DNA of 64,000 nt, from positions 12,678,482 through 12,742,481 of the forward strand of contig NC_069671.1 of assembly GCF_027244095.1 (NCBI RefSeq), in the 5' to 3' direction. This document shows positions 21,114-63,878 of the stretch, piece by piece (the first letter of the stretch is position 1; each line of letters begins with the position of its first letter). The notes under the pieces were generated by a model. That model searched no databases, was not told where the DNA came from, and saw only the letters and a program-made list of their open reading frames with translations. This DNA comes from Hemicordylus capensis. Its lineage: Eukaryota > Chordata > Lepidosauria > Squamata > Cordylidae. The translations under genes and the position numbers were made by a program.

Positions 21114-30438
<9,325 letters not shown>

Positions 30439-30993: not shown

Positions 30994-33900
30994 ATGAACG
31001 AAGCAGGTAAGAGGCGAAACGACAATTCTCCCTAATTCCCCCCACCCCAGGGATGCTTCTTGTTTTCTGGTCCCTGTTCCTGGTCAGCAGTTGACCCTTG
31101 TATTCAATAACAGCTGGAGAGCCTCCTCTTGGCCACCCTTGCTTTGCGGGATGCTTTGTTAAAAGTGGTTTGCGTGAGTTGTTGAGTTTTCTTTCTTGCA
31201 GTTTAGCTTTCTCTCCAGGATCCCTGAGAGTTAAATCCTGGAGTGGGGAGTGGCTGCACAGGAAACTGATTTGTACTGAGCCAGAGTATTGGTTAATAAA
31301 AGTCAGTATTGTCTGCACCAGGGATTCTCAACGTTAGGTCCCCAGATGTTTTTGGACTTCCACTCCCATAATCCCCAACCAAAGGCTACTGGGGCTGGGG
31401 ATTATGGGAGTTGAAGTCTAATAACATCTGGGACCCAACATTGAGAATCCCTGGTCTACACTGACTGGCAGCAGCTCCCCAAGGTTTCAGGCAGGAGTCT
31501 TTCCTAACCTTACCTTGAGATGCCAAGGATTGAACCTCGGACCTACTGTGTGGAAAGTAGATGCTCTTCCACTGAGCTAAGGCCCCACCTCATTTCTTGC
31601 TTCCGTGTATATTAATGCTACCTTGTAGCTACCTAATGGCGCAGCAGGGAAATGACTTGATTAGCAAGCCAGAAGTTGCCGGTTCAAATCCCGGCTGGTA
31701 TGTTTTCCAGACTATGGAAAACACCTATGTCAGGCAGCAGTGCTATAGAAAGATGCTGAAAGGCATCATCTCATACTGCACGGGAGATGGCAATGGTAAA
31801 CCTCTCCTGTATTCTACCAAAGACAACCACAGGGCTCTGTGGGCATCAGGAGTCAACACTGACTCAACAGCACAACTTTACCTTTACCTTTATTAACATC
31901 TCAGGTACCTTGAAGTGCAAAGGTGGTCACTTTACCAATGCAGTTGCTGCCTTAGACTGCTGTGTTGGAAACAGGATGCTGGAGTAGATGGAACAGCAAC
32001 TTTTTAGGGTTTGAGGCAGAAAAGTCTTTTTCTCATGAGATGCTAGGACCATGAGATGCTAGGAAATGAACTAGGAAATGAACCTGGGTCTTTCTGAGTG
32101 CACAGCTTATGCTCTTCCACTGAGCTATAGCTCCTCCCCTAAGCAGCTTACAAGACTATAATGTAAATGATAGTTTAATTAGTTCATAATAAAATTTAAT
32201 GCATAAAACGGAGCTTTAGTTTCTGAGATATGAAAGAACCACCAAGGGGATACTCTTTTTACTCCACCCCTCTTCTTCCCAGAGTTGATTGAAGCCTTTA
32301 AAACCCGGATGGCAGAAGATCCGGATGTTGCCTCTGCTGTGGCTGCTATCCATATCTTGCTGGTGTTTTTGAAGAAAGATAAAGGCAAGTAATTCTACGG
32401 ACTGAAATGTGGAGCGGGGGTTGCCTCAGAGAGGACATCGCCAGTAGCCCAGATCATGGGCAGGCAGACTTTTCACTAGTACTCCTAGGTTCACAAAGCA
32501 GGTGCTGGGGGTTTGTGGAGCCAGAGGGTCTTTTGCTGCTTTTTGTCCAATGTTCTCCTGCCCTTTGTTAGGTGAGACAATTCAAGGCTTGAGAGCAAAT
32601 CTCAAAAATGCGATAGAAACGCTGTCTAGCGTTGACTCTTCAGTGGCCGTCTCTTCTGGAGGAGAGCTCTTCTTAAGATTCATCAGTCTCACCTCCTTGG
32701 AGAACCCGGTGAGTTTCAGCTAGAGGCAGGGAGGGTGGTCAACAGCTTCAAGGCTTGCTGTAGCTGAGTTCTGTCCTCCTTGTCTTCCAACCTTGATTCT
32801 TCCAACTTCTTCCAGGACTACTCCAAATGCAAAGAGATCATGATTGAACGAGGAGAGCACTTTCTCTGGAGAATCTCTCTTTCGAGAAACAAAATAGCCA
32901 AACTTTGTCATACGTTTATCAAAGATGGCGGGGTGAGTAAGCCGGGGCTTCAGAAGACAAAAGAAAAGAGTGAAGTGCTTTTTCTGGTTGTGTATATTTC
33001 ATAATTTTACAATTGTACTAGGCACAAAATGTATTACCCTGTGAATCTTACAGGGCCAAACAAAACCCAAAAAGGAGTGTATTTATTTAAACACGTATAC
33101 CCAGCCTCTCTCTTTAAAGAGTAACTTGAAGCAGCTTACTTAGTAGGTTTTACTTAGGAAAAATAAGTAGCATTCTACAATTGAGGATTGTGTTGGTATT
33201 TTTTTTTAAACGTTGAATAAAAAGCACAACACACCATAAACTGCAAAATGTGTGCATTGCCTCCCTAGGGAATATTGACTCATGCTTACTCGAAGGTGGT
33301 CCTGAGGGTGTTAGAAGCTGCAACAGAAGCCAAGAAACGCTTCAGTGTCTACATCACCGAATCACAGCCAGATCGAGCAGGGCAAGTCGATGGGGACAGT
33401 GATCTTTTTAACTCTGTTCAAATAACTCAGTTCTTAACTGGAATATGATTGACTTTTGTGAATTTAACTTGGCAGCTGGCTGATCTATTGCCAACTCTGT
33501 GTTTGTGTGTGTGTGTGATTGTTTTCTGACGTCTATACTGGCTTTGTGCTGTATACTCTCATTTTATGCCACTGAAATGTGTTTATGGCATGTATTTCTT
33601 TCTCTCACAGGCAGAAAATGGCCAAAGCCCTCAGTAAGCTAGGCATTCCTGTAACTGTGATCCTGGATGCTGCAGTTGGGTACGTGAATGAGAGTTCATT
33701 GCTGTACCACTTCTGGAATGGAGGGAAATTCAACATATGAAGCTGCCTACTGGGTCAGACCCCGGTCCATCGAATGTCCTGTTGTATACTCTGACTGACA
33801 GCAGCTCTCCAGGTCTCAAGCGCAGGTCTTTCTCATCACCTGCTGCCCAATTCTCTTTAAAAACAAACCTGGAGATGCTGAGGCTCTTCTGCATGCGCAG

Positions 33901-36900
33901 CAGATGTTCTACCGTTGAGGCTGAGCAGTAGTCTCTCTTACTAGGGAGCTCTCTCTACACCACCCTGAGCTCCTTGGAGGAAGGGTGGGCTATACATGGC
34001 TGATTACCAGTGGCATAGCTGAAGGAACAGCAGAACTGGGCTCCAGGGATTAAGCAGCATAGCAGCCACCGTGGCAAATGTTGTGTATGACTTGCATCTT
34101 CTGTTGTTGGTTTTTGCCTTTTGTCCTTCTCTAAATAGCTACATCATGGAGAAAGTAGACCTGGTGATAGTTGGTGCTGAAGGAGTAGTAGAAAATGGAG
34201 GAATTATTAACAAGGTAACATGTATATGCAGGATTGTTGTGGTTATCTATGCACTGAGTCTTGCCTGGTCTTGGAAACCTTTTAATTTCTGAAAAATCTG
34301 AGAACTTAAATAGGATTTAAATATATGAATACGATGAATATTTATATACCACTTTTCAACCAAAGTTCCCAAAGCGGTTTACATAGATTTAAATAAATAA
34401 ATAAAGTGGCTCCCTGCCCCCAAAGGGCTCACAATCTTAAAAAGGAACACAAGATAGACACAAGCAAAAGCCACCGGAGGGATGTTGTACTGGGGATGGA
34501 GAAGGCCAGTTGCTCTCCCCCTGCACAGAGACTCACCACTTTTTAAAGGTGCCTCTTTGCTCAGTTAACATTAGGGATGTGCATGAACCTTTTTACGGGC
34601 TTCTGAACAGGTTCGAACACTGGGGGCGGGGGCACTTTAAGGATGGGGGAGGGTGCACTTACCCCTCCCCCTGCTTTCCCCGCCAGTGCTCGTTCTCCAT
34701 AAAAGCCTTTGGGGCAGCAGTGTACCTCGCTGCCGCTCCTTCCCCCTCTTCGGCAATGATGCACACACCCCCGGTACTTCTGGCCACTTCCGGCCGAAAA
34801 GGGGGAAGGGGCAGCAGGGAGGTACACTGCCGTCCCGAAGGCTTTTATGGACCATGAGCGCCAGTGGGGGGAGGGATAAGTGCACCCTCCCCCGCCCTTA
34901 AAGTTCCCCCCCACACCCTCGAGCCACCCCCACCTAGTTCTGTGCATATCCCTAGTTAACATCTGCTCAAGTCTATCCTATTAAAATTGATGCAGTTTTG
35001 AAGTGCTTAACTTCAACTGAATCTTGCTCTCTCTTTTTGGTGGGGGAGGGAGGGGTGTTAAATCAGAAATACAGCATTGCTTGACAGACCTAACCTTAAG
35101 CATTGCTTTCTCTCCTTATCCAAAACGGCCTCCGCAGATTGGTACAAACCAAATGGCTGTGTGCGCCAAAACTCAGAACAAGCCATTTTACGTGGTTGCC
35201 GAGAGCTTCAAGTTTGTAAGATTGTTTCCTCTGAACCAACAGGATGTCCCAGATAAGTTTAAGGTAAGGGAAGAGTATTATTATTGACTTCTGCCACCAC
35301 CCGTGTGTGTGTGTGACAAGTTACAAAGCATGAGAGGAAAAATCCTTGCCCCAAGGGGCTTACAGTCTAGCAAAAGAAGGCACTTTAAAGATTGATGACC
35401 ATAAGATTCAGTGGTCCAATGTGGTAGAAAACAGGCCTTCAGGTCTCAGTTTGTTTAGGGCTTCGTAATTACTACTCCGACTCCGACTTATATACCACTC
35501 GTCAACCAAAGTTCTCAAAGTGGTTTACATAGAAAAATAAATAATACATAAAGAAGATGGTCCCTTGTCCCCAGAGGGCTCACAAGCTAAACAGAAACAT
35601 AAGGCACATACCAGCAGCGGCCACTGGAAGGATGCTGTGCTGGGGTTGGATAGGGCCAGTTGCTCTCCCCCTGCTAAATAGAAGAGACTCACCACTTGGA
35701 AAGATGCCTCTTTGCTTAGTTAGCTGGGATAAGTGTTAAGAAGCATTTCAAAATGTGCCTGGAGACAGACCAACAACCAGTGTGCATATTAACGTATTAA
35801 CTCCTCTTCATGAGTCAGATCATGGGTCAGCCCAGCTCAGTATTGTCTACCCTAACTGGCAGTGGCTCTTCTGGGTTTCAGGAAGTGGCCTGGTCTTGTG
35901 GCAGTGGGCACCAATTGTCCCCTTTGCTAAGAAGGGTCTGCCCTGGTTTGCATTTGGATGGGTGACACGTGAGCGCTGTAAGATAGTCTCCTCGGGGGAT
36001 GGAGCCATAGCTCAACTTCAAAAGGCCCCAGATTCCCTTCCTGGCAGCATCTCCGGGTGGGGCTGGGAGAGACTCCTGCCTGCAGCCTTGGAGAAGCCAC
36101 TGCCAGTCTGTGTAGATGAAACTGAGCTAGATGGACCCATGGTATAAGGCAGCTTCCTGTATTCCTGCTCTGTGTGGAGAATGCCAGGGATTGAACCCGG
36201 GACCTTCTGCTTCCAAAGCAGGTGCTCTTCCGCTGAGCTGTGGCCATAGAAGAATGCTGGCCAGATATGCTCCCTGCAGTTGGTCCCGGGTAGTACGAAA
36301 TCCATTCGCTGTGTTGTTAACTGAAGTTCTCGGGAAGTCCTCAAAAGGCAGACCCCCACATACAGTGCATGGTGGAAGTCCAATCTAGAGGTCTGAGACC
36401 AGCCTGTTTCGGGCTACTAGAGATGTGCACAGAGCCAGCCCTGGTTCAGTGGCGGGCTGGTGGCTTTAAGGGCAGGGGAGGATGCACTCTTCCCCCCGCC
36501 CCACCGGACACACGTTTCCCTAAAAGCCCGTCGGGGCAGCAGCATATCTCCCTGCTGCCCTGATCCGACATTATCCAGAAATAACTGGAAGTAGTAGCTG
36601 TGACTGCACACGCACCCGACATGCGCGAGCACATGCAGTTGCAGCTGCTACTCCTGGATAACGTCGGAGCGGGGCAGCAGGGAGGTACGCTGCCGCCTCA
36701 ACGGGATTTTAGCAAGACATGCACTGGTGGGGGAAACACAATGTGTGTGTGTGTGTGGCGGGGAGTGCATCCTTCTCCGCCCTTAAAGTCACGCCCACCC
36801 CCGCCACCGAACCCTCGAGCCGGGCAAGGTTCGAACCAATTTGGAGGCCTGTAAAAGGGCCTCCGAACTGGTTCGTGCACATCCCTACTGGCTACGAGTG

Positions 36901-37135
36901 GTCCTGCTGGCACTTTTGGTGGGAAAACCCGTCCCTTCTCAGAAAATAACATGCCTCTTCTTGTGTTTTTTCTTCCCAGTACAAAGCAGACACACTGAAG
37001 AAAAGTAAGGCACTTGCAGAGGAGCACCCCTGGGTTGACTACACCTCCCCATCATTGATCACTCTGCTCTTCACAGATCTTGGGGTTTTGACCCCTTCTG
37101 CCGTTAGCGATGAACTTATTAAACTCTACCTGTAA
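30994..37135 (+). CDS. EIF2B1: Translation initiation factor eIF2B subunit alpha
   Basis: Nine exons: 30994-31006, 32283-32384, 32572-32708, 32816-32932, 33269-33381, 33611-33679, 34139-34214, 35138-35263, 36980-37135. They total 909 nt, 302 codons plus stop (human 305), all in phase. Recognisable blocks are [105 protein letters not shown] and the C-terminal [12 protein letters not shown]. Family knowledge: the alpha subunit is a regulatory Rossmann-like subunit of the eIF2 guanine-nucleotide exchange factor, forms the dimer that joins two eIF2B halves, and senses phospho-eIF2. Intron 2 has a GC donor (AAAG|gcaagt), and intron 5 most likely does too (CAGG|gcaagt). The poly(A) signal is at 37318. 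The N-terminus MNEAELIEAF differs slightly from the human MDDKELIEYF. Confidence 0.97.
31258..31590 (-). mobile_element. tRNA-headed SINE split by a hAT-type MITE
   Basis: Minus-strand SINE in EIF2B1 intron 1. The body breaks at GTCTGCAC and resumes at GTCTACAC around a 135-bp MITE (31319-31453). The tRNA-like head lies at about 31520-31585. Confidence 0.8.
31319..31453. mobile_element. Short palindromic hAT-type MITE
   Basis: 135 bp, ends CAGGGATTCTCAACGTT and its inverse, core ACTCCCATAATCCCCAACC. Target duplication GTCTGCAC / GTCTACAC, inside a SINE. Confidence 0.85.
31625..31897 (+). mobile_element. tRNA-derived SINE with Bov-B-like 3' end
   Basis: The head carries an A-box-like TAATGGCGCAGCAGGGAAAT and a B-box-like GGTTCAAATCCC (31680-31691). 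The 3' end (GGGCATCAGGAGTCAACACT, GACTCAACAGCACA, then a CTTTAC repeat) resembles the Bov-B LINE 3' end, as in Sauria-type SINEs of squamates. It lies in EIF2B1 intron 1. Confidence 0.75.
33733..33945 (-). mobile_element. tRNA-headed SINE
   Basis: Minus-strand copy in EIF2B1 intron 6, with TACTGGGTCAGACCCCGGTC and a degraded head at about 33890-33925. Confidence 0.65.
34572..34954. mobile_element. Palindromic hAT-type foldback element with 8-bp target duplication
   Basis: About 383 bp with long inverted arms (GC-rich, centred near 34763) and ends TAGGGATGTGCA and TGCATATCCCTA. Flanks are identical 8-bp GTTAACAT copies (34564-34571 and 34955-34962), which fits the hAT nTnnnnAn target pattern. 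It carries no transposase and lies in EIF2B1 intron 7. Confidence 0.85.
35886..36165 (+). mobile_element. 5S-rRNA/tRNA-type SINE
   Basis: Plus-strand copy in the last intron of EIF2B1, with 5S-like TTTGCTAAGAAGGGTCTGCC and GGATGGGTGACACG. It is followed by a tail-to-tail tRNA-headed copy at 36166-36255 on the minus strand. Confidence 0.75.
36418..36887. mobile_element. Palindromic hAT-type foldback element, second copy
   Basis: About 470 bp of the same family as 34572-34954. Ends TAGAGATGTGCAC and GTGCACATCCCTA. Flanking 8-mers are CGGGCTAC (36410-36417) and CTGGCTAC (36888-36895), 7 of 8 matching. Both copies lie in adjacent introns of EIF2B1. Confidence 0.8.
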
Positions 37136-39592: not shown

Positions 39593-39665
39593 AGTGGGCA
39601 ACTCTCTTTCTTTGTGCTTGCACCTCACCCTCCTTTCTTTCCCCCCAGCAGCAGACACCACTAGG

Positions 39666-41988
39666 ATGTTGCTGGTGCAGGCAGTGCTGGTGGCCTTCTT
39701 CCTCTCAGCCCCAGCAGCCGGCAACTTGGTTGTCATTGACCAGGATGCGGAGGAGTGTTTCGCCAAGGAGGTCCTAAATGGCACGGAGATCAGGTTCCTC
39801 TTTGAGGTGCTTGAGGGTGGCTTCTACGACATCAGCGTGGAGGTGAGTCCAAGCCAGGAAGGGCAGCACAGAGGAAGCCGGGGTGGGCAGGAGCTGGGCA
39901 GGGAGCTGGAAGGCTATGGCTCAAGAGCTGGACAGCGCATGATGCTGGGGGAAGGCACAAGCTCCCCAAGGGAGGGGTTGATCCAGCAAAAGGCTGGTGG
40001 TGCCATCTGCAGGTGTGTTAGAGCCAACGAGAGCCCTGCGCCTCCTGGATGTGCAGGCCAGGCCTCCTCTAGAGCAGGGATTCTCGGCATTGGGTCCCCA
40101 GATGTGACTGGAATTCAACTCCCATAATCCCCAGCCCCAGTGGCCTTTGGTTGGGGATTATGGGAGTTGGAAGTCCAATCACATCTGGGGACTCAACGTT
40201 GAGAATCCCTGCTCTAGAGGAGGTGCCTCCTGGGCGGGCCTCTTCCTGCTATTGAGTAGATCCCTCGGGGGATGGAGTGTGACTGGCCCAGAGTCACCCA
40301 GCTAGCCACTACACCACACCCACTCTAGCCACTACACCACACTGGCTCTTTTTAGATTGCACTCAGGTTGAATCAGGAAAGCCCCGCTCTGAATGCACAT
40401 GTGCACACACTGCCTTGATACTGCCGCCCAGAACAAAACTCATTCCGCACACAGATGAAAAGAATTAAGAGTGCCCACTGTTCAAGTGTCATGGCTTTCT
40501 TTCTCTCTTGCTTCCAAGATAACAGCACCTAATAACAGGAAGATCTACGAAGTGCAGCGACAGTCCGGTGGGGCGTACATCTTTGATGCTGAGATGAGTG
40601 GAACGTACCAGTTTTGCTTTAATAACAGGAAGGCCAGCGCAACTCAAAAAGTAGTGAACATCACACTGGACATAAGTGAACCTCCCAAGCAGGCAGCTAT
40701 GGAGACAGGTGAGGAGAAATCTTTCTTAGCTCCCATTTTAAATATGTTTCTTCTTTAGAAAGAAGCTGCCCCCAACCCATTTGCATATGTGGAACCTTCT
40801 GAGCAATCTGACACCTTATCTTTTGACAAGCCACAAATGTACAACCAGTACCAGCAAAACAAAGCTGAGGTCTTGTGAGTTCTTTCAAAAAGGCCAGCTC
40901 TGCAGTCCATGTGAAAACTGTTTCCAAGGTCTTACATACCCTCCTAAAGGTCCCAACGAGACCAGACCTGAGATGATTAAAAAAATGGACTGAAAACATC
41001 TGCAGGATTTGGGATGCCCTTTTTGAAACTAAGATACTCTGCCCAGTTATACAGAGGCAGAAGATCACCCCAGCTTAACTCTAAAAAGTGGTTTGATGAC
41101 CAGTTCAGACACTTTCAACCAATTCTGATAAATTTAATGTAGAATAATATCAAAGCCATCACTAATTTAAGTACAAAGCATAGAAAGCCACATGTAAGAC
41201 TTACTACGGACTAAAACTGTAATGCTGCAATAGGCAGTACAGAATCCACTGTAAGACTAGAGCACATAGGAAACGACTGAGTCGGACCCTTGGTCCATCT
41301 AGCTCAGTCCTGTCTTCACGGACTGGCAGCGGCTTCTCCAAGGTTGCAGGCAGGAGTCCCTCTCCGCCCTATCTGGAGATGCCAGGAAGGGAATCCAAAA
41401 TCTTGTGCATGCGAACAGGCAGATGCTCTTTCTAGAGCAGCTCCATCCCCTGAGGGGGAATATCTTACAGTGCTCAAACATGTAGTCTGTATATAAGGTT
41501 CTGTATGGAGCTTCCTAGCAGCACCTCAAGACCCCAGACAACCTGCTGACTGCACAGAGTTGACTAAGTGGCAGCGGACAAGGTTCTCTGGATCCCAGCC
41601 CTTCCTTTTCGGAAATCGCTCAGGACAAGAGTTAACAGTAAGAGCAGACCAATGAAGTGTCCTTTGTGTCTGTTACTTGCAAGTCTCATGGGGAACGCTG
41701 CAAATTGTATTTCAGAATGGAGCAACATGTCTTTGGCATCAGCTGGGGAAATTATGGCTGCTGTGTTGCGCTTGGAGATCGCTGTGAACACCACAAGTAA
41801 GTTCTTACACTTTGGCTTGGTTCCTAATGGACTCCTGGCCCACCTGGCCCTCACTCCTCCTCTCTTTTCCTTGATACGCAGTTAGACTTTTGCAGGACCG
41901 AGTCTCCAGATTAGAGAGAACTGTGGAAAAAATGAGAACAGCCAGGGGCGGCCTGACAACCTACCCATCTGAAGATGCGGAAGGCTAA
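39666..41988 (+). CDS. TMED2-like p24 protein with GOLD domain, no transmembrane helix
   Basis: Coding exons 39666-39842, 40519-40708, 41716-41796 and 41882-41988 give 184 codons plus stop, all in phase. Residues 1-19 form a signal peptide (MLLVQAVLVAFFLSAPAAG). Residues about 21-120 are a GOLD domain very like TMED2: IDQDAEECF, FEVLEGGFYDISVE, GTYQFCF, TLDISEPPK. The Cys pair expected for the disulfide is C31 and C92. Intron phases (0, 1, 1) match TMED2, and both genes split an Ile codon A|TT at the last junction. The C-terminal third does not match: residues 134-167 form a heptad-like helix (LQDRVSRLERTVEKM) and the end is hydrophilic (TTYPSEDAEG), with no membrane span and no KK or FF tail motif. 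Four N-glycosylation sequons lie at N38, N106, N126 and N147. Known p24 proteins are type I membrane cargo receptors; this one is predicted soluble and lumenal or secreted. An acceptor at 39647-39648 just before the ATG implies a 5' non-coding exon. Reading through the exon-2 donor would instead stop at 40756-40758. Confidence 0.72.
40075..40211. mobile_element. Short palindromic hAT-type MITE
   Basis: 137 bp, same ends as 31319-31453. Perfect 8-bp target duplication CTCTAGAG at 40067-40074 and 40212-40219. It lies in intron 1 of the TMED2-like gene. Confidence 0.9.
41262..41490 (-). mobile_element. 5S/tRNA-type SINE, head truncated
   Basis: Minus-strand copy in intron 2 of the TMED2-like gene: GACTGAGTCGGACCCTTGGT to CTTACAGTGCTCAAACATGT. 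The 5S head is cut short. Confidence 0.65.
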
Positions 41989-42904
41989 GGTTCTGTTTTC
42001 CATGTAACGTTTTCCTTAAAAATGACTTGCAATGTAACTCCTTCTCTCTGAATAGGCTGTCATGTAGCCACTTTGAATTACTGCTGCATATGCATGCTTT
42101 TATGCTGATAGTATGTTGTGATGTAACAACACTGAAGAACTTGCCGTTGCATAGAGTTAATCAATTCCAGAAGAAATGGGTTCTGCTTAAGCAAGCTGCA
42201 AATACTGTGGCTGGAGTGAAGGGTAACAATAAGCCACTCTCTCCCACAGCCATCTACTTCCGGGGTTTTCAAACAAACCTAATCATGGAGGAGAGCTTGT
42301 TGTCGAGTGAAATATAGCCGTTTAATCAGTCCGGCAGCTCCAAGGCCATACAACCAAGCTAGCCTGTAAAATTCAGCATGCAAAAGACCCGAGAAACTTA
42401 CTAAAACTATAACTCAGCGAAGGAGCTCCCTGAAAAGGTTACTTGACTGGTCGCCATCTTGCGCAGCCTCTTTCAAACGAACCTGTTGAACCTCTGCCAT
42501 TGTGGCTGGGGATGATGGGTGCTGTAGTCCAACACCACCGGGGGATCCAGGTTTAAGAAGCCCTGCTGTGGGTTAGACACTTGACCTTGCCCATAAAGAA
42601 AGGCCGAGGCAAGAGGAAGCATCTGGGAAATAGGTCCCAAATTAGTTTCAGCCCAGAAGAGGCTGGGGTGGCGTTGAGTGGCTACAAACCTCAAGATGGG
42701 AAGGCGATCTCCATCCCTGTGTGACTTATACTACCAAATTAGGAGAGATGAGGAAAGAGGCTGGATCAACCCAGTTCCAAATACAAGCCCCAACAGCAGA
42801 GCCAAATGGCATTTGGCATTGACAAAATGCAGTTGTCAAGTTAGAAAGCCATTTTAGACAAGAACAATAGAGCTGGGCCGAGCACAGAGCAGCTGCGCCT
42901 CTAG

Positions 42905-43205
42905 TTGGGAACTGCCGCCCATGTTATCTTCTTCTCCCACCCCCTCGCTGTCTTCTAGTTCTCCCCCCACACCCACTGGCCGTTTGCCACCTGGCCAGGT
43001 GGCCCACCTTCTTCCTTCCTTTCCTCCCGCCAGCCAGCCAGCCAGCCATTCACCGATGCTTTCTCCCCCCACCACCCCTGCTTTTTTGCTAGCCGTCTTC
43101 TTCCCACCCACCTGCCTGCCAGCCGTCTTCTTCCCCACCCCCTGCCAGCTATCTTCTTCCCCGCGCCGCCGTTTTCTTTGGCCAGCCGGCCAGCCACCCC
43201 ACTGC
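42905..43205 (+). repeat. Pyrimidine-rich degenerate tandem tract
   Basis: About 300 bp of C/T-rich sequence with recurring units such as GCCAGCCGTCTTCTTCCC and GCCAGCCAGCCAGCC. It is low complexity and non-coding on both strands, despite open frames caused by its composition. It lies downstream of the TMED2-like gene, possibly in its 3' UTR. Confidence 0.6.
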
Positions 43206-43752
43206 CATACCTGTCGCTATCCAGGCAACTGCTTGCGAACTTTCGGGAGAGCTGCTGTGCACGGGATTAGCCACGGGAATGCCTTAGAGAAATATAGATA
43301 GATGGATTACAGGAGACAAATTGCTTTTCTCTCCATGATCCATACTTCTAAGAGACACTAAAGTCTGGTGGTTGTTTTTTTTTAAAAGGATTATGATGGG
43401 CAGGATACTCATGGCAACAAAAATCACCATTGCACAAATCTAAAGAAAAATCATGATACCCTAGGTAAAGAACTTTAGCTTCAGCACTCGGGCATACAAG
43501 GTGAATGGCTGAAGGAGCAGCAACTGTATAGACAAGGGGAGGTAGAGAGAAAACGCTCAGGAAACCTTTGTAGACAGATGAAAGTTTTTGGGAAATGAAT
43601 GGAGGGAGACCACAGCTCTTTCAGGATATGACTTTCTATTTTTGATTGAGGCTTAAATTCGAGGCGCATGACTGTATGTAAAGATGAAATCTATATTTGC
43701 TTTTTAAAAGTCATCTCTGAACTGTTTGATATATATATATATGTTATATGAA

Positions 43753-43758
43753 AATAAA
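43753..43758 (+). terminator. Candidate poly(A) signal of the TMED2-like gene
   Basis: AATAAA lies in A/T-rich DNA about 1.8 kb after the stop codon at 41986-41988. No canonical AATAAA was noticed in between, so the 3' UTR may be long and include the pyrimidine-rich tract at 42.9-43.2 kb. Confidence 0.35.
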
Positions 43759-44329
43759 TATATATTTAGAAACCCACCATTTCATTGGCATTATTAAAAA
43801 GGGCCTGTGAGCCCCCCAGCAGCTGGGATGACGTGACCTTTGTTCCACTCTGGTTTCGGTTCCCTTGCCCAGCCCGAGAAGGCAACAGAACGGCAGCCAC
43901 CCAAGGAGAAGTGGGCCCAGCGGGGGCTCATCTCTGGGAAGGAGACGGTGGGGCCACGAGGCATGAGGGCCTGTATCTTTCTATAGGGAAGGGCCCCAGG
44001 AAGTGCTGACCCCAGACGGTCCTGCCGATGAGTACAAAAGGGAGTTGCCTGCTGGGGTTACAGCAGGATGCTGGAGGCCCTTGGAAGATGGGAGGCGAGG
44101 AAAGGGCAGGCCAACTGCAAGACTGGTTACAGCCTCCCTCACCAGACCTGCTGAAGGACATCTGTTAGGAACCCGGTGACTGGGTGAGGTTGCCACTCGC
44201 CCCAGGTGAATGAAAACCTTCAAGTGTAGTCTTGTACTCTCTGGAAGGTGCTTGACCAGGGTCCCCGTGGCGCTGAGCTGAGCTGGCTTCCGGGGCCCAG
44301 CTCCCACGACAGGGCCTTCAGCCCCCTTC

Positions 44330-56530
<12,201 letters not shown>

Positions 56531-59658: not shown

Positions 59659-63878
<4,220 letters not shown>

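Follow-up and report, generated by a model that had tools for sequence, protein, structure and literature searches.

A candidate TMED2-derived gene between EIF2B1 and DDX55 of Hemicordylus capensis, predicted to encode a soluble GOLD-domain protein

The DNA analysed here, a stretch of 64,000 nucleotides from the squamate Hemicordylus capensis (hereafter, the window), carries EIF2B1 on the plus strand (32282–37132) and DDX55 on the minus strand (44372–56530), both located by tblastn, with their exons in order, using human query proteins. A candidate gene of four exons lies on the plus strand in the 7.2-kb interval between them, with EIF2B1 as its upstream neighbour and DDX55 as its convergent downstream neighbour; an earlier reading of the letters alone (the sequence-only reading) had placed it there, and the limits of EIF2B1 (ending at 37132) and DDX55 (beginning at 44372) agree with that placement. 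The presumed parent gene, TMED2 (59659–63836, minus strand, 95–100% identity to TMED2), is represented by exon 2 (63836–63644), exon 3 (60580–60473), and exon 4 (59783–59659), its exon 1 being outside the window. TMED2 and the candidate are situated on opposite sides of DDX55 and in opposite orientations.

The four exons of the candidate are in phase, as had been claimed, and their joined product is a protein of 184 amino acids followed by a stop codon. Coding exon 1 (39666–39842, plus strand, as are all four) encodes the signal peptide and the first half of the GOLD domain and ends in phase 0; coding exon 2 (40519–40708) encodes the second half of the GOLD domain and ends in phase 1; coding exon 3 (41716–41796), which is open, encodes a linker or helix with two N-glycosylation sequons and also ends in phase 1; and coding exon 4 (41882–41988) encodes a coiled coil of 4-3 heptads and a polar tail, up to a TAA stop codon. 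The intron phases (0, 1, and 1, the same as in TMED2) and the split of an Ile codon as A|TT are likewise as described by the sequence-only reading, and this correspondence with TMED2 may be a coincidence if exons 3 and 4 of the parent gene were never copied or were deleted.

Because a strong acceptor (cctttctttccccccag|CAGCAG) is found 17 bases before the ATG (score 7.26, compared with 7.71 for the best acceptor of TMED2 on the same scale), a non-coding first exon further upstream is likely, and positions 39649–39665 on the plus strand probably belong to coding exon 1 as its untranslated 5′ portion. No CpG-rich stretch is present in 37.3–39.7 kb. The first common polyA signal on the plus strand is at 43753, 1.8 kb past the stop codon, in sequence that should lie antisense to the 3′ untranslated region of DDX55. 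With common polyA signals (43753 on the plus strand for the candidate and 42326 on the minus strand for DDX55), the 3′ untranslated regions of the two convergent genes would overlap (42326–43793), and antisense transcripts may be formed.

Kinship with TMED2 is clearest in exons 1 and 2, where it had been proposed: against a human TMED2 query, with which solved TMED2 chains agree in result, the candidate is 50% identical over 121 amino acids without a gap (E 9e-40), and both cysteines (C31 and C92) are kept. The candidate protein matches Pfam family EMP24_GP25L (PF01105) at 80.3 bits (cut-off 25.9), and its matches to solved chains are best for TMED2 (6.7e-32), followed by TMED5 (2.1e-10) and TMED1 (9.4e-4), so that placement in the beta subfamily follows from TMED2 being the closest of the subfamilies among solved chains. 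Two features characteristic of p24/TMED proteins are present, namely the GOLD domain with its conserved cysteine pair (C31 and C92 align with those of TMED2) and an N-terminal signal peptide (MLLVQAVLVAFFLSAPAAG), called on hydropathy, which peaks at 2.16 over 19 residues. The mature part of exon 1 is identical to TMED2 at 23 of 41 positions, and the codon log-odds of this exon are 0.38 per codon. Exon 2 aligns with TMED2 exon 2 along 63 codons without a gap, with 69% of the nucleotides identical (a score reached by 0/200 shuffles; K2P distance 0.40), and the likeness extends about 20 bases into the intron on the acceptor side. Exons 1 and 2 are an old TMED2 duplicate, and we regard the gene as very probably real in this part.

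The candidate protein has changed fast. Between the candidate and TMED2, exon 2 has a dN of 0.31–0.36, a dS of 0.60–0.76, and a dN/dS of 0.43–0.61; since the window's TMED2 exon 2 is identical to the human one at 62 of 65 residues, nearly all replacements fall on the branch of the duplicate, and if silent change is split equally between the branches, the duplicate's own dN/dS is near 1, which, if so, is relaxed or positive selection. For that reason, the case for purifying selection rests mainly on the frame of exons 1 and 2, which shows zero indels and zero stops relative to TMED2 over 122 codons. Missing indels carry more weight here than the stop-free frame, albeit with an assumed indel rate: under the general assumption of one neutral indel per ten substitutions, about 13 indels would be expected in 366 nucleotides at 0.35 substitutions per site. 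In neutral simulations with substitutions only, on the other hand, exon 2 stayed stop-free in 27–51% of trials, which makes an open exon 2 weak evidence by itself.

The same figures bear on the possibility that the locus is a truncated duplicate in decay, i.e. that exons 1 and 2 were copied, the 3′ end is chance downstream DNA, and the whole is a functionless pseudogene, either transcribed or silent. Such decay would be in keeping with the frequency of stop-free neutral trials, with the high replacement rate of exon 2 (30 of 63 residues, TMED2 being nearly frozen), with a weak exon 3 acceptor, and with the failure to find homologous 3′ exons in the interval. The replacements are nevertheless fewer than the neutral expectation (35.5 ± 2.6 if all change occurred on the duplicate's branch), the 122 codons are without an indel, both cysteines and the exon 1–2 splice sites are intact, and exons 3 and 4 are coding-like, with a strong heptad pattern; we consider decay distinctly unlikely.

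Counterparts of TMED2 exon 3, which encodes the coiled coil, and exon 4, which encodes the membrane span and tail, were found neither as DNA in 40.7–44.35 kb (scores of 80 and 70, respectively, where shuffles averaged 84 and 82) nor as protein, where no forward frame of the interval gave a score above shuffles. At K = 0.45, this search recovers a neutral copy of exon 3 in 78% and of exon 4 in 94% of trials, and at K = 0.6 in 32% and 47%, respectively, so that copies decayed to the latter degree would be missed more often than they would be found. To judge from these searches, divergence is a less probable reason for the absence of the two TMED2 exons than their deletion or their omission from the original copy. 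The exons that occupy their place look coding: compared with stop-free non-coding stretches, the codon log-odds of exon 3 (0.13) are above 97% (P = 0.028) and those of exon 4 above 96% (P = 0.036). Neither exon has a significant match among solved structures or Pfam families. Derivation of exons 3 and 4 from a repeat elsewhere in the window was considered and set aside, no repeat origin having been found.

Within these exons, the hydrophobic heptad reported by the sequence-only reading (V146, I150, L153, V157, L160, V164, and M167) proved to have perfect 4-3 spacing across the exon 3/4 junction. It was matched by 0/3000 shuffled tails and 0/38,362 non-coding 25-residue windows, and the part within exon 4 alone, which is most of it, by 1/767 non-coding open reading frames; the heptad and codon figures overstate the case somewhat because the exons had been chosen by eye beforehand. 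As a coiled coil, the candidate tail scores 13.3 and TMED2's own coiled coil 8.6 on the same scale. We hold the 3′ exons as modelled to be probably right.

Exon 3 is nonetheless possibly optional, i.e. skippable in frame. It is symmetrical (81 nucleotides, phases 1 and 1), and while its donor scores 5.42, its acceptor (−0.02) is the lowest among those scored for the candidate model and TMED2 (that of exon 4 scores 2.83). Were the same gene spliced from exon 2 directly to exon 4, a join that is in frame (METVRLLQDRV...), it would encode a 157-amino acid protein of GOLD domain and coiled coil with the greater part of the heptad retained, and both forms might be made. The coding-like codon use of exon 3 and the extension of the heptad into it at V146 argue against skipping, which seems to us unlikely.

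Three features that define p24/TMED proteins are absent from the modelled product. The p24 lumenal coiled coil is not recognisable, the predicted coiled coil bearing no resemblance to TMED2's own (P = 0.50); the single C-terminal transmembrane span is lacking, with a Kyte-Doolittle maximum of 1.42 in the mature protein versus 1.77 in TMED2 and no 19-residue stretch at ≥1.6; and in place of an FF or dibasic coat-binding tail, the protein ends in ...TTYPSEDAEG. The sequence-only reading had stated that coiled coil, membrane span, and FF tail were all lost. This is correct for the span and the FF tail and incorrect for the coiled coil, as the new tail is itself predicted to form one, and the 3′ end is better described as a putatively received, unrelated end than as the loss of a transmembrane tail.

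No transmembrane-bearing alternative 3′ exon of p24 type was recognised in 40.7–44.35 kb. A hydrophobic stretch near 42078 was tried as a TMED2 membrane span (S-x-FE...LK) and rejected (P = 0.55 to 0.99 with the transmembrane query over all forward frames, the best alignments being elsewhere). This stretch and two other loose hydrophobic stretches, at about 43074 and 43689, are what could be cited for a true 3′ end that was missed, with a membrane anchor contributed by exons further downstream that have no recognisable TMED2 similarity; all three are devoid of p24 features and of TMED2 similarity, however, and the only alternative two-exon chains above the splice-score thresholds (which the four-exon model itself fails on account of the acceptors of exons 3 and 4) run into DDX55 in antisense and have no p24 feature. 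A missed anchor of this kind is, in our estimation, very improbable.

The four N-glycosylation sequons that had been reported are all present (N38, N106, N126, and N147), compared with 1.18 expected by permutation (P = 0.018), a modest excess over chance that would fit a lumenal protein.

To our knowledge, p24 proteins have been described as membrane cargo receptors, all of which have GOLD, coiled-coil, and transmembrane parts in common, and we found no relevant report of a named TMED2-like gene or of a soluble p24 in the open-access literature. Searches of non-vertebrate genome contigs and viral contigs yielded no relatives of the candidate, which has no bearing on its conservation. As these p24 parts (coiled coil, membrane span, and tail) are missing from the product, we suggest that ‘p24-derived GOLD protein’ is a better name for it than p24 cargo receptor. 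The cytosol also has soluble GOLD-domain proteins (SEC14L, ACBD3, and FYCO1); these share predicted solubility and the domain with the candidate but are cytosolic, have distant GOLD sequences, and are without a signal peptide.

In human, the beta subfamily is listed with a single member, TMED2 (p24 beta 1; PMC10620864). The candidate resembles it in signal peptide, GOLD domain, the two cysteines, gapless identity (50% over 121 amino acids), and intron phases (0/1/1), and differs from it in having no transmembrane span or cytosolic tail, unrelated exons 3 and 4, four N-glycosylation sequons, and a charge reversal at position Cys+3, where TMED2 has Glu and the candidate Lys34. Glu at Cys+3 is conserved among TMEDs, and the E52R replacement in TMED9 strongly reduced the binding of one cargo (PMC11414720); Lys34 in its place hints at an altered cargo choice. 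In p24 proteins, the GOLD domain serves to bind cargo and Tango1, while assembly is driven by the coiled coil in the lumen (PMC11414720, PMC10932740). Solved and cryo-EM p24 structures (TMED2 GOLD domain, 5azw; the TMED2/TMED5-containing 21gl; TMED9 oligomers) have the GOLD fold that is expected of the candidate from homology, followed by a lumenal coiled coil that is trimeric in TMED9; the predicted coiled coil of the candidate likewise follows the GOLD domain, but its heptad and the coiled coil of TMED2 are dissimilar in sequence, and a membrane domain is absent. TAG (TRAM adaptor with GOLD domain) also combines a GOLD domain with a non-p24 C-terminal part, and interactions between GOLD domains are described (PMC7904555); TAG is a splice variant with a TIR domain, whereas the candidate is a gene of its own whose tail is a predicted coiled coil.

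The locus is still best read as proposed from the letters, as encoding a TMED2-derived soluble lumenal or secreted GOLD protein, with which the sequons and the want of a recognisable p24 transmembrane exon in the interval agree, amended in that the coiled coil was replaced and exons 3 and 4 look acquired. That this is a genuine protein-coding gene for a fast-evolving, soluble, glycosylated beta-p24 paralogue of TMED2 strikes us as somewhat probable. A partial inverted duplication would have taken TMED2 exons 1 and 2, with the signal peptide and the GOLD domain, across DDX55, and new 3′ exons, encoding a coiled coil and a polar tail, would then have taken the place of those for the coiled coil, membrane span, and coat-binding tail of p24 proteins. 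The product would enter the endoplasmic reticulum and be N-glycosylated, its GOLD domain folding around a C31–C92 disulfide; its coiled coil would let it self-associate or join p24 partners, and it would itself be unable to recruit COPI or COPII. As a soluble oligomer, it would bind p24 partners or cargo in the ER–Golgi lumen, competing with or modifying membrane p24 complexes, or it would alternatively be secreted. We infer expression, location, oligomerisation, and function alike from the sequence, and the protein would most likely act on membrane p24 complexes or their cargo, as a soluble partner or competitor, or else be a secreted oligomer. The more specific proposal of a lineage-specific soluble p24, in which selection kept a duplicated TMED2 head with a newly evolved coiled-coil tail as a regulator of p24 cargo receptors that is diffusible, whether lumenal or secreted, is offered tentatively, with confidence just short of even. 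If true, a natural p24 without an anchor would separate lumenal from coat-binding functions, a natural soluble competitor would be useful for testing the choice of cargo and partners by the GOLD domain, and the gene would exemplify the making of a gene from half an old one and a new 3′ end.

Repeats are present in and near the gene. Intron 1 contains a nearly self-complementary element (40063–40223; 85% identical to its own reverse complement), with related copies at 31319–31458 and elsewhere, that has the look of a mobile element of the short inverted-repeat (MITE-like) type. The dispersed repeat in intron 2 (41276–41488), of which the window has about 12 copies (e.g. 2800–2998, 22599–22794, and 49009–48819), is probably a SINE. 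The tRNA family of Rfam (RF00005) has two weak matches on the minus strand, 36184–36239 at 38.1 bits and 31516–31586 at 29.5 bits; these, at neither of which ARAGORN called a tRNA gene, are likely tRNA-derived SINE heads.
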